Source: Pirellula staleyi DSM 6068 (GTDB lineage: Bacteria; Planctomycetota; Planctomycetia; Pirellulales; Pirellulaceae). From it: 46,060 nucleotides of DNA. The number at the start of each line of letters is the position of its first letter. Positions within the stretch are counted from its first letter, which is position 1. The stretch covers positions 1-46,060 of the forward strand of contig CAMBSL010000013.1 in assembly GCA_945870455.1 (NCBI GenBank), written 5' to 3'. Below the pieces are notes generated by a model that ran no database searches, was not told where the DNA came from, and worked only from the letters and a program-made list of their open reading frames with translations. The translations under genes were made by a program, and so were the position numbers. Of this stretch, positions 14,766 to 23,739 are shown piece by piece.

Positions 14766-14851
14766 AAAGCGACTTTACATCAAGAACATCCTTGTCGGCG
14801 TTCAATCAAAGCCACCAACTACGCTACAGCTCCCAATCGCCAAAAACATTT

Positions 14852-17800
14852 ATGACCACGCCATCATCATTCAACTCACCTAACTTCGGCTTCCTTGCGA
14901 AGCATGATGTTATTTTGGTGAAGCATGCCGCTCTTGCTGAGCGATATGTATTTGGTGATGCAAATTTATCGCTGATCAAGCTGCGGCAATTCGCTGAGTT
15001 GTTGGCGGAGCACTGCGCAGCCTATGCAGCTATTACCGTTGACGAGCAAGATTCTTTTCTTAACGTGCTCGACAAGCTTTGGAATGCAGGAGTTTTAGGG
15101 GCGCAAGTTAGCCAACTGTTTCATGGCATTCGAAAATCTGGCAATGAAGCGGCTCATGGACACACAGGCGATCGTCGCGAAGCACTGCATCAACTGCAGA
15201 TGGCAAGGAAGCTTGCCATCTGGTTTCATCGAACTTTCGGCAACGACAAGACCTTCGAGGCAGGCTCCTTCATCGTTCCTCCCGATCCTGCAGCAGCGGA
15301 AAAGGAACTACTCGACGAGCTGAATCGACTTCGAGAATCTGAGGTTGCTGCCGCCAATCAAGCAGCGGACTTGAAAGCCACGCTTGAAACTGAGCTTCGT
15401 CAAAAAGCTGAGGCTGAATCGAAGGCAAAACTCGCGTATGACGACCTTGACGCAGCTTTGGAGCTCGCTGCAGAAAGTGAGCAGCAACTCGCAACTGAAC
15501 GGAAGAAGTTCCACGAGCGTTTGAACGAGCTACTAGCCAAGACCGCGGCAGAGCCAGCTGACAAACGAAACGCGACGATGACGACCGCGCTCGCGCAGGA
15601 TGCAAGTCTCGAACTTGACGAACAAGCAACCCGACACATCATCGATTCGCAGCTTCGCGAGGCGGGCTGGGAAGTCGACTCACTGACATTGCGCCACTCC
15701 AAAGGAACACGTCCCGCCAAAGGTCGGAACATCGCGATTGCTGAATGGCCGACAAAGAACGGACCAGCCGATTACTTGCTCTTTGTCGGACTCTGCCCGG
15801 TTGCATCTATTGAGGCCAAAAAGTTCAAAGTCAGTGTCGCCAGTCGCGTTGATCAAGCTGCCCGCTACTCGAAAGGGTTCCAAACTGAATTGAGTTTCGA
15901 ATCCAACGGCGGCCCATGGCGAGAATATCATGTGCCTTTTGCTTTTGCCTCGAACGGTCGGCCCTACCTTCCCCAGATAAAAGAACAATCAGGCGTTTGG
16001 TTTCACGATCTTCGCGAGACAACCAATAAGCCACGCGCTCTGAAAACCTGGTACACACCCCAAGGTTTAGCTGACTTACTCGCCCAAGATATTCCCCAGG
16101 CCGAAGAAAAACTCACAGTTGAGCCGCTGGACTACTTACCACTCTACGACTTTCAGAAAGCCGCGATCGAAGCAGTTGAAACGCATCTCGCCGCCGGTCA
16201 TCGCCGAATCTTGATTGCAATGGCAACCGGTACCGGCAAGACACGTACCTGCCTTGGTATGTTGTACCGATTCATCAAATCCAATCGTTTCCGTCGAGTT
16301 CTATTTCTTGTGGACCGAACATCGCTGGGTGAGCAAGCCGAGGGAACCTTCGAAAATGTCCGGCTCGAGAACCATCAATCGTTCGACGACATCTATGACA
16401 TCAAGAAGATGGGAACACTCAAGCCAGATTCTGATACGAGGCTTCAAGTCGCAACAGTGCAAGGAATGTGCAAGCGTATTCTCGGCAGCGACGATACCGA
16501 GCCCGTGCCGGTTGACTGGTACGATTGCATAATTGTCGATGAATGCCATCGAGGTTATGCCCTCGACATGGAGATGTCGGAAACGGAGATGCAGTTTCGC
16601 AGCCCAGCCGATTATTTGAGTCGCTATCGCCAAGTCCTCGATCATTTCGATGCTGTTCGAATTGGGCTTACAGCAACGCCGGCACAACACACATCACAGA
16701 TCTTTGGACCCCCGATCTTCGAATACAGTTATCGACAAGCCGTGATCGACGATTATCTTTGCGACCACGAGCCACCCTATCGATTCATAACCGACTTGGC
16801 TACTAGCGGAATGGTATGGCAAAAAGGTGACGAAGTTGAGGTCTTTCATTCCGGCGATAAGTCGGTCAAGAAATTCCAAACACCTGACGAAATCAAGATC
16901 GAGGTCGCGGAATTTAATAAGCGAGCAATCACCGAAAATTTCAATCGAGTGGTTTGCCGCGAACTCATCAATCACATCGACTTTGATGGCTCTGGAAAAA
17001 CGCTAATCTATTGTGTGAACGACGATCACGCCGATCGTGTCGTTCGAATTCTCAAGGAGGAGCTGGATGACGCCTTTGGCGCATTCCCCAATGATGCAGT
17101 GAAGAAAATCACAGGTAGCATCGACAGGCCATCCGAGACGATTCGCCGATTCAAGAACGAGTTTGATCCTCGCGTTGCTGTTACCGTTGACTTGCTGACC
17201 ACGGGCATCGACGTTCCTAAAATCACGAACTTAGTTTTCCTAAGACGAGTCAGCAGTCGTATTCTCTACGACCAGATGCTCGGCCGCGCGACGCGAAAGT
17301 GCCCAAATCTGTATGGCGATGGACAACATAAAACAGCGTTTCGTATTTTTGATGCAGTAGACCTCTACAATGCTCTATTGCCGATGACCGACATGAAACC
17401 AGTGGTGGCTCGTCCCAATCTAACATTCGGTCAACTCATAACCGAGTTGCGCGATATCGAGGACGTCGAATTCACCGAAGAGTCGAAGCGGCAATTGCTC
17501 GGCAAGCTGCGACGCCGCAAGCTAACGGCAAAGCAAGAAGAGAAGATGCAGTCCCTTTTAAACGTAGCTTGGGACCATTGTCCCGAGCAAACACACCAAC
17601 CGATTGAGCAGGACGGGACAATGGTCCCATCCTACGGCTCAACTCGAAGATTGTCACAAGCAACGAACCAATTGTGTGACTTGTTGAATTCAAAAAATCC
17701 AAAGCAAATAGCGGAGTGGTTCGACACAAATGGGAACGTGCTCGCAATTCTTGACGACACGACATCTGCGGGCAGTTACGTGTTTATCTCAAAGCACCAA

Positions 17801-18346
17801 GATATCGTACGATCCGTCGAGACCGGATACGGCACAGCGACAAAACCCGAGGATTACATCGAGTCCTTCCGAAAGTATGTGACTGAAAACCAAGACACGT
17901 TACCAGCATTGATCGTCGTGACCACTCGACCACGTGATTTGACCCGTGCTCAGTTGCGTGAACTGAAGCTAGTCATGGACGAAGCGGGTTTCACCGAGCA
18001 AAACTTGCGTGTTGCAGTGCGAGAAACTACGAATCAAGACATTGCAGCGTCGATCATCGCTTACATTCGCCACGTTGCACTTGGTCAACCATTGGTTCCC
18101 CATTCTGATCGTGTACAATCCGCCATGAAAAAAATCTTGGCAAGCCGACAATGGACCGAACCACAACGAAAGTGGTTGGAGCGGATTGGCAAGCAGCTGG
18201 AGCATGAGATCATCGTCGACCGCGATGCACTCGACGCCGGCCAGTTCAAAGAAATGGGCGGCTTTACTCGTTTGAACAAAGTGTTCAAGGGTGAACTAGA
18301 AACAATTCTCCGCGACATCGCCGACGCGATGTGGGTAGCCGCGTAA
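14852..18346 (+). CDS. hsdR: Type I restriction endonuclease subunit R
   Basis: IEAKK nuclease-region motif, ILIAMATGTGKTRTC (Walker A), VDECHRG (DEAH-like), RIGLTATP, LLTTGIDVPKITNLVFLRRVSSRILYDQMLGRATR. Likely start MTTPSSFNSPNFGFLAKHD. Confidence 0.95.
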   Translation: MTTPSSFNSPNFGFLAKHDVILVKHAALAERYVFGDANLSLIKLRQFAELLAEHCAAYAAITVDEQDSFLNVLDKLWNAGVLGAQVSQLFHGIRKSGNEAAHGHTGDRREALHQLQMARKLAIWFHRTFGNDKTFEAGSFIVPPDPAAAEKELLDELNRLRESEVAAANQAADLKATLETELRQKAEAESKAKLAYDDLDAALELAAESEQQLATERKKFHERLNELLAKTAAEPADKRNATMTTALAQDASLELDEQATRHIIDSQLREAGWEVDSLTLRHSKGTRPAKGRNIAIAEWPTKNGPADYLLFVGLCPVASIEAKKFKVSVASRVDQAARYSKGFQTELSFESNGGPWREYHVPFAFASNGRPYLPQIKEQSGVWFHDLRETTNKPRALKTWYTPQGLADLLAQDIPQAEEKLTVEPLDYLPLYDFQKAAIEAVETHLAAGHRRILIAMATGTGKTRTCLGMLYRFIKSNRFRRVLFLVDRTSLGEQAEGTFENVRLENHQSFDDIYDIKKMGTLKPDSDTRLQVATVQGMCKRILGSDDTEPVPVDWYDCIIVDECHRGYALDMEMSETEMQFRSPADYLSRYRQVLDHFDAVRIGLTATPAQHTSQIFGPPIFEYSYRQAVIDDYLCDHEPPYRFITDLATSGMVWQKGDEVEVFHSGDKSVKKFQTPDEIKIEVAEFNKRAITENFNRVVCRELINHIDFDGSGKTLIYCVNDDHADRVVRILKEELDDAFGAFPNDAVKKITGSIDRPSETIRRFKNEFDPRVAVTVDLLTTGIDVPKITNLVFLRRVSSRILYDQMLGRATRKCPNLYGDGQHKTAFRIFDAVDLYNALLPMTDMKPVVARPNLTFGQLITELRDIEDVEFTEESKRQLLGKLRRRKLTAKQEEKMQSLLNVAWDHCPEQTHQPIEQDGTMVPSYGSTRRLSQATNQLCDLLNSKNPKQIAEWFDTNGNVLAILDDTTSAGSYVFISKHQDIVRSVETGYGTATKPEDYIESFRKYVTENQDTLPALIVVTTRPRDLTRAQLRELKLVMDEAGFTEQNLRVAVRETTNQDIAASIIAYIRHVALGQPLVPHSDRVQSAMKKILASRQWTEPQRKWLERIGKQLEHEIIVDRDALDAGQFKEMGGFTRLNKVFKGELETILRDIADAMWVAA
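17563..17636. repeat. Palindromic element inside hsdR, read in frame
   Basis: CGTAGCTTGGGACCATTGTCCCG...CGGGACAATGGTCCCATCCTACG: ~23-bp inverted arms (3 mismatches) inside the hsdR frame, encoding approximately NVAWDHCPEQTHQPIEQDGTMVPSYG. Confidence 0.9.
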
Positions 18347-18358
18347 TAGCTATCCAAC

Positions 18359-18425
18359 GTAGGATGGGACCATCGTCCCGTCAGTCTATGCGCTCGGAAT
18401 AATGGTCCCAAGCTACGGATCCTAC
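18359..18425. repeat. Second copy of the GTAGGATGGGACCAT palindromic element
   Basis: GTAGGATGGGACCATCGTCCCGTC...GGAATAATGGTCCCAAGCTACGGATCCTAC begins 13 nt after the hsdR stop; same two-arm structure as the copy inside hsdR, opposite orientation. Confidence 0.9.
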
Positions 18426-18444: not shown

Positions 18445-18538
18445 CTAGTTCAGCCTTCTTGACTAATCCCCGCCTCTAGTCTAGAAAATGGCGAATTCGT
18501 GGATTAGTGTGGTGCGTTGGTATAGAGGGCTGAACTAG
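18445..18538. repeat. Inverted repeat spanning the hsdR-fic intergenic region
   Basis: CTAGTTCAGCCTTCT (18445-18459) pairs with AGAGGGCTGAACTAG (18524-18538), 14/15 bp; inner ACTAATCC / GGATTAGT also complementary. Confidence 0.85.
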
Positions 18539-19752
18539 TGAATGAATCGGACTTCCAGAAAGATTTCCCTGGGAAACTGGTCACAACCTGTCTCACCGAA
18601 TACTTGAACGGGCCAATGGAGCCCCCAATTCAGACAAAAACGTTTGCATTCGTTCCGGATCCCCTTCCTCCCAAAATTGATTGGAAGGCTTTGCAGCTAG
18701 AGCATTTCGATCGCTATTCCGAAACGCTCTTGGCCTTAGGAAAAATCAACGGACTACACAAGCGAGTTGGGAACGCTGCGGGAATGTTGCGAACCTTGTG
18801 GATGCGTGAAGCAAAGCTATCCTCGGAAGTAGAAAACATTCACACCACGGCAGAAGAGCTTGTATTGGCGGGGGCAGGACGATCCTTGAATCCGCGTGAT
18901 AGCAGTCTCGAAAGTTGGAACTATGTCCGAGCGCTTGAACATGGGATCCATTCCGAGTTCTCTTTTACGAGAGAGCGTGAAATAAGAACTCGGCCAACTC
19001 GGCCATTCCCATCACTGAATGGATGAATGGTTTCAAATTGATAATGAGTGAGGGCGACGGCAAAGAGAGGAGGAATATACTCGTGAGAATTGTTCACGAA
19101 GACTTCGAGATCGCGAATTGCATTGAGCCAATCATCTCCGGGAGGCATTGGAATAAACCGGGCGTGTCGAGCTCCGGGTAGCGGCCCACTCAAGTAGACA
19201 CCTTTGTCGCGGAACAGACCTGGGCGATGATGCTTGCCGCGAACGCTTTGTAGCAAGATATCGTGCATTTCCCGAATGAGTCGAGATGACCATGGCAAAC
19301 TGCTCGAGCACCCTGTCGTCTACATGAGTGCTTACATCAACGAACATCGCAAGCAGTACGTCGACCTTCTTTTAAGAATCAGTCAACAAGGAGGTCAAGC
19401 ATGGTCTGACTGGATTGGTTTCTTTCTGGAAGCTATTCGAACTCAGTCTCTCGACGCTATTTGGCGCAGCGAAGAATTGATCAACCTGCAGGTTCGTTTT
19501 CAGGACCTTCTTAAAACAGACGGCGCACCGACAAGGTTGTTTCCCGTTGTCGATTCATTGTTTGCTTCTCCTGCAATCAATATTGCAGATCTCATGAAAC
19601 ATACAGAAACCACTAAAACAACCGCAGGAAAAGACATGGAGCGTCTCGAACGTCTTGGTATCGTCCGAGAGATTACCGGACGCGAACGCGAACGCGATTG
19701 GCTTGCACAAGACATCGTCAACGTCATCTCCAAGGAATCGCCGCAACAATGA
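18538..19752 (+). pseudogene. Fic-domain protein gene interrupted by an internal inversion
   Basis: N-terminal part on + (MNESDFQ...SSLESWNYVRALEHGIHSE), Fic core on - (LPWSSRLIREMHDILL...HPFSDGNGRVGRVLISRSLVKE), C-terminal part on + (KLLEHPVVYMSAYINEHRKQYVDLLL...). Reverting 18958..19298 gives a single 404-aa ORF. Confidence 0.92.
18958..19298 (-). other. Inverted internal segment of fic
   Basis: Breakpoints by frame reconstruction: GAG(18957)+TTGCCATGG... and ...GTAAAAGAGAA+A(19299)CTGCTCGAG; 2-nt TT/AA ambiguity at the ends. Confidence 0.9.
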
Positions 19753-20213
19753 CCACAACACAAGACATCGTCGCAAAACTCTGGTCGCTGTGCCACGTCC
19801 TACGTGACGATGGCATTACGTATCATGAGTATGTGACCGAACTTACATTTCTCCTCTTCCTTAAGATGATGAAGGAGACACAGCAAGAAAAGCTGCTGCC
19901 GGCTGGGTATCGTTGGGATGATCTGACAGCGAAAGATGGCGTCGATCAATTGGCTTTCTATCGATCGTTGCTTGTACATCTGGGCAATGAAGGCTCCGGT
20001 CGAGTACAAGCAATTTTCGCCAACGCCAATACCTCATTACGCCAACCAAAGAACCTTGCCAAGATCGTTGGCGACATCGACAAGCTAGATTGGTACTCGG
20101 CTCGCGAAGAAGGGTTGGGTGATCTGTACGAAGGCTTGCTAGAAAAAAACGCGAGCGAGAAGAAGTCGGGGGCTGGTCAATACTTTACGCCGCGACCATT
20201 GAGCAGTATGTGA
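19749..20213 (+). pseudogene. HsdM (type I restriction methylase) N-terminal remnant
   Basis: MTTTQDIVAKLWSLCHVLRDDGITYHEYVTELTFLLFLKMMKE...DLYEGLLEKNASEKKSGAGQYFTPRPL then stops; GAGQYFTPRPL is the conserved pre-catalytic HsdM motif and everything beyond it is missing. ATGA overlap with the fic stop. Confidence 0.93.
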
Positions 20214-23635: not shown

Positions 23636-23739
23636 GTAGGATGGGACCATTTGTCCCGTCCAAACAAAGGCCCATTTGTCCCGTTGTCCCGTCCAAACAA
23701 AGGCCCATTTGTCCCGTTGTCCCGTCCAAACAAAGGCCC
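23636..23739. repeat. GTAGGATGGGACCAT half-element followed by a 33-nt tandem repeat
   Basis: CCCGTCCAAACAAAGGCCCATTTGTCCCGTTGT at 23655-23687, 23688-23720, and partial at 23721-23739. Confidence 0.92.

Follow-up and report, generated by a model that had tools for sequence, protein, structure and literature searches.

The reading frame of hsdR in the window (the whole 46,060-nucleotide stretch of DNA analysed here) runs through a palindromic repeat, which raises the question of whether a mobile, non-coding element has become protein sequence without breaking the gene that it entered. To our knowledge, few mobile non-coding repeats outside Rickettsia are well documented to have turned into protein, and the functional consequences are almost untested. 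An initial annotation had placed an element of about 74 nt with inverted arms inside the hsdR frame, and the arms were found at 17563-17585 and 17614-17636 (23 nt, 91% complementary). The element is real, and the exact mobile unit is 72 nt long, with borders GTAG...CTAC that were set by comparing copies and outside of which the sequence is unrelated between copies. Very probably it is a dimer of GTAG-tagged REP units, a non-autonomous substrate of a REP-associated tyrosine transposase (RAYT), that inserted in frame into hsdR and was tolerated. The features at the insertion site are as follows.

14792..18346, + strand: hsdR, type I restriction endonuclease R subunit (PRK11448-type), 1184 codons, with the reading frame open through the repeat
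17564..17635, + strand: REP dimer (BIME-like), 72 nt, in frame in hsdR, two 25-nt GTAG-headed units with their GTAG ends outward
17564..17588, + strand: left REP unit, GTAGCTTGGGACCATTGTCCCGAGC, outer stem GCTT/GAGC
17611..17635, - strand: right REP unit, GTAGGATGGGACCATTGTCCCGTCC, outer stem GGAT/GTCC
17636..17656, + strand: about seven extra codons 3' of the repeat, likewise missing from orthologs in the multiple alignment

Both units of the hsdR dimer (GCTT and GGAT) are perfect. The window contains the core GGGACNATNGTCCC three times, where 0.06 occurrences would be expected, and the repeat folds into a hairpin (z = -5.7) that none of 200 shuffled sequences equalled. The hsdR copy starts with GTAG and ends with CTAC and has no TIRs outside the dimer, which sets it apart from MITEs with their TIRs and TSD. 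Within the gene, the dimer makes up 24 codons in codon phase 0, inserted after codon 924 (AAC) and before a GGC codon, and encodes VAWDHCPEQTHQPIEQDGTMVPSY as HsdR residues 925-948. The translated peptide first proposed is in frame, and the N and G at its ends belong to host codons. Three of the six frames of the dimer are open; the GTAG tag supplies a TAG stop in one frame per strand, and a TGA shuts another. The 72 nt are divisible by three, which the common 58-nt dimers are not, and the hsdR frame survived because the length is a multiple of three and the dimer landed between codons in an open frame.

The REP unit of this family has 25 nt, GTA[GNNT-GGGAC]CATT[GTCCC-GNNC], with a 9-bp stem and a 4-nt loop. 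Nearly all of the 45 exact-core units extracted carry the GTAG head that defines GTAG-REPs, and their outer-stem versions are all compensated (GGAT/GTCC in 16 units, GATT/GATC in 9, GTTT/GAAC in 8, GCTT/GAGC in 4, and GGCT/GGCC in 2). Among 18 distinct units, 98% of the pair cells are paired, and the covariation score is 0.301 against 0.086 in shuffled alignments (reached in 0 of 500 shuffles, a figure that is not a probability, as units of one family are related). Shifting the stem partner by any step, a control that retains the relatedness of the units, abolishes the covariation, and compensatory changes at the two outer stem pairs amount to 19 cells against 7.0 after shuffling, as expected of a stem under base-pairing constraint.

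That the repeat is dispersed and mobile had been suggested from the window alone and holds at the scale of the genome and the genus. A genome-wide search with the originally proposed pattern, allowing up to three mismatches, returned 34 + 34 matches, compared with none for the reversed control, and a covariance model located the family at 41 places in the genome, mostly as dimers and mostly between ORFs. The family is patchy: REP matches were found in 11 of 27 genomes of the genus, with 17-122 matches in seven of them (the window's genome included), one or two in four, and none in the rest. Two further members lie in the window.

18359..18416, + strand: second REP dimer, 58 nt, just 3' of the hsdR stop, with opposite subtype order, one unit being decayed and carrying mismatches
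23636..23739, + strand: variant REP unit with a 5-nt loop (CATTT) that leads into a 33-bp tandem repeat of 2.7 copies

The former corresponds to the reversed copy already noted after the hsdR stop, whose subtype order is reversed as described, while its span is the 58 nt given here and it is partly decayed. The supposed half-copy at 23636 is a REP unit with a longer loop that leads into the tandem repeat at 23651-23739. This unit and the 33-bp repeat stand at the 5' end of a 201-aa ORF, the real start of which is probably further downstream.

HsdR has the architecture of a type I R subunit. It matches NCBIfam NF008521 with 1465 bits over residues 29-1182, profile searches identified the Pfam domains HSDR_N, ResIII (the SF2 helicase part) and EcoEI_R_C, and the set of helicase motifs is complete. 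The helicase part ends at about residue 836 and EcoEI_R_C starts at 1020, with the insertion site between both, so that the insert lies in a variable linker ahead of the EcoEI_R_C domain. One scan of genome contigs with the HsdR protein yielded no relative. In tblastn searches, the alignments with relatives end at residues 910-922 and restart at 956-962, with few residues of the relatives in between. The multiple alignment included 12 orthologs that all cover the site (about 50-58% identity before it, 37-64% after it; L241, where the longest ORF is not a homolog, was left out), and all 12 have nothing opposite the repeat, the alignment breaking at about 921 and restarting at about 958. The peptide is therefore an insertion, as had been supposed, and not a segment conserved among orthologs, since the alignment breaks precisely at the repeat. 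A closely related hsdR with a base-exact empty site was not found among the orthologs; even in the C-terminal part, where conservation is highest, their identity does not exceed 64%. The idea that the repeat became protein sequence fits the unbroken open frame and 24 of the 31 residues missing in orthologs; the following seven, about GSTRRLS, are not repeat and may represent either natural linker length or sequence brought by the insertion.

A candidate source of mobility was found in sister species. In G147 (contig C54) and G202 (contig C22, 67% identical), a Y1 transposase gene has REPs of the hsdR family on both sides, and in G203 (C307) a broken copy of the transposase, 87% identical and interrupted by TGA, lies between two REP dimers. 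On the strength of this gene neighbourhood, the hsdR repeat is assigned to a RAYT/REP system. The arrangement of a Y1 (RAYT) gene flanked by its own REPs was seen in these sister species and not in the window's genome itself (G000), where the 92.5%-complete assembly yielded no cognate RAYT and only paralogs of 40-42% identity. None of its 13 Y1_Tnp genes has an hsdR-family REP within 900-1000 bp, where a flank that long exists; other GTAG hairpin families accompany four of them, and the closest two paralogs (C357, C4) have yet another. The cognate RAYT of this genome has either disappeared or is encoded in the 7-8% that the assembly lacks. An ORF of 230-235 aa between two REPs on contig C19 was considered as a REP-flanked transposase and rejected, as it reads by eye as methyltransferase-like.

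RAYT paralogs elsewhere in the genus adjoin different GTAG hairpins. Paralogs with their own GTAG hairpin families occur at L127, L128, L129, L131, L137 and L139, and further ones at L211, L212, L215-L218 and L222, with hairpins such as GTAGCCATGGGC..GCCCATGG, GTAGTGTGGGCCTCTGAGCCCGCAC and GTAGGACGGCCTTTCCAGGCCGTC. Such diverse paralogs, each with its own hairpins, are good material for studying RAYT/REP specificity.

The insertion in hsdR has a counterpart in the same genome. At C182:8603-8660 (L103), a REP-bearing insert lies in frame in a 1331-codon membrane protein, and the site is empty in the sister genome G196, with continuous reading and protein identities of 89% and 86% on the two sides. 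The net insert of 129 nt consists of a 126-nt element with GGCGAGCGGCAG inverted ends carrying a REP dimer, plus a CTA target duplication, and this structure implies that REP dimers also travel within a larger MITE-like unit. Where enclosing ORFs were checked at the examined REP places, only the C182 copy, besides that of hsdR, was well inside a conserved gene, so that verified intragenic copies number only two among the 41 places. In-frame capture has occurred at least twice. Seemingly intragenic copies at the N-terminal ends of ORFs in L090 and L112 were left out of the count, as the true starts are probably downstream. At L112:2393-4594 (contig C213 of the window's genome), a 734-aa ORF has an element like that of C182 at its 5' end. 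The right end of this element reads NHLSIVSFLPLALIVLSLGVV and resembles part of a signal peptide; the repeat may have contributed either a start codon or a portion of a signal sequence.

In the mechanism that we favour, the dimer of GTAG-tagged units would have served as the non-autonomous substrate of a Y1/HUH transposase of the RAYT type, which would have catalysed its insertion between codon 924 (AAC) and the GGC codon of hsdR. With no stop in the landing frame, the 72 nt would then be read through and translated as the 24-residue peptide. Tolerance may be owed to the position of the insert in a variable linker, with the helicase part before it and the C-terminal EcoEI_R_C domain after it, to an RM operon that was already losing function, or to both. 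The second of these leads to the most serious alternative, which bears on why the insert was tolerated and does not conflict with the REP insertion as such, and it draws on the genes 3' of hsdR.

18538..19752, + strand: fic, 3' of hsdR; inversion of the central third, about 18956-19293
19698..20213, + strand: hsdM, truncated after the first N6_Mtase motif (profile positions 2-151 of 487); the start is that of the listed ORF, the true one probably being near 19750

hsdM ends at about residue 171 and is followed by unrelated sequence, hsdS is absent from the locus (PF01420 matches occur in contig C27 only), and the core of fic is inverted in place, the SoFic profile matching 6-107 on the + strand, 113-216 on the - strand and 215-359 on the + strand. 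The RM operon seems to be dead or rearranged. HsdR is active only together with HsdM and HsdS; with one partner gene cut short and the other missing from the locus, the repeat-bearing HsdR may be inactive unless it works with a different methylase. It is accordingly conceivable, though we would put it at somewhat less than an even chance, that hsdR is a decaying pseudogene of a dead operon in which the REP is a neutral passenger and the open frame is luck. However, the 1184 open codons, the full set of helicase motifs and an identity to the best two orthologs of 62-64% after the insert, compared with 57% before it, give no visible sign of decay. The inverted core of fic includes a HPFSDGNGRVGR motif and may reflect rearrangement or misassembly; only short, imperfect inverted repeats were found around it, and none at both breakpoints.

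Transposition into hsdR by a RAYT has to be weighed against local copying, by homologous or template-switch exchange, from the dimer at 18359. A distance of 720-800 nt separates the two GCTT/GGAT dimers, and each has AAC...GG as its flanks, but their subtype order is opposite, their spacers differ (72-nt and 58-nt dimers), their wider flanks differ, and the hsdR spacer is at least as similar to that of a RAYT-flanking dimer of G147, which makes local copying very unlikely. REPs are known RNA-processing and transcription-modulating elements, and the RNA form of the hsdR repeat would fold with about -39.6 kcal/mol, so the repeat could act in hsdR DNA or mRNA as a control hairpin (a processing site or a pause) that damps restriction; as the insertion is conserved in no other genome, such a role is very unlikely. 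We hold it to be very unlikely that the insert has been domesticated, with the 24-residue peptide as a working linker of an active HsdR or with the hairpin tuning restriction after loss of the cognate methylase, which, if true, would mean that a mobile repeat has been co-opted inside a defence enzyme. An ordinary lineage-specific HsdR linker that is palindromic by chance can practically be dismissed: although the linker is variable among orthologs, each of the two 25-nt units matches a family that is found at 41 places in the genome and gives no hits in the reversed control, and these dispersed copies refute it.

Insertion of a REP dimer in frame thus stands as the preferred reading, and it has precedents. 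According to Di Nocera et al. (2013, BMC Genomics 14:522, PMC3733652), GTAG-tagged REPs are known from the PVC superphylum, in-frame GTAG-REP dimers encode 20-30 aa, many of them in DNA-processing genes, and the GTAG of REPs gives TAG stops to adjacent ORFs. The present case shares with these intragenic dimers the GTAG stem-loops, the dimeric arrangement, the in-frame insert of 20-30 aa and the TAG stops. The main text of that paper makes no mention of hsdR or restriction, and, as a further difference, the insert was here tested against orthologs and the cognate RAYT was located in sister species. The Rickettsia palindromic elements (RPE), as cited in the same source (PMC3733652), form in-frame parts of numerous protein genes within a single lineage. 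The hsdR insert is likewise palindromic, in frame, absent from orthologs and flanked by a frame kept on both sides. RPE-4 and RPE-6, in contrast, are of the CGTC type without an associated transposase, while the repeat in hsdR is of the GTAG type with a RAYT, and the many RPE-bearing genes compare with two verified intragenic copies in this genome. In the RAYT/REP (TnpAREP) systems of Enterobacteria and Pseudomonas (PMC2817692, PMC8266576), a Y1 gene lies between GTAG-headed palindromes; this organization and the dispersal of opposite-orientation REP dimers in the genome are shared, whereas the genus considered here is planctomycete-like, judging from the gene content of the window's host, and the cognate RAYT is seemingly lost or unassembled in the window's host. 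The in-frame REP in hsdR is a fresh and clean example of a known but uncommon phenomenon and not a new kind.

One genus displays the full chain of transposase with REP, dispersed copies, REP-free genomes, two genes that carry in-frame inserts, and an empty site that is nearly exact. Because the whole chain is visible within one genus, the determinants of insert survival (length modulo three, reading frame, linker position, and whether the gene was already dispensable) become directly testable. At other places, the TAG of the GTAG tag terminates adjacent genes, such as the methyltransferase-like ORF of C19 and a 578-aa ORF of C210, as other GTAG REPs do (PMC3733652). At 2487-2882 of the window, an ORF peptide, NPKRERGAERNPSLTRR, resembles another translated dispersed repeat.
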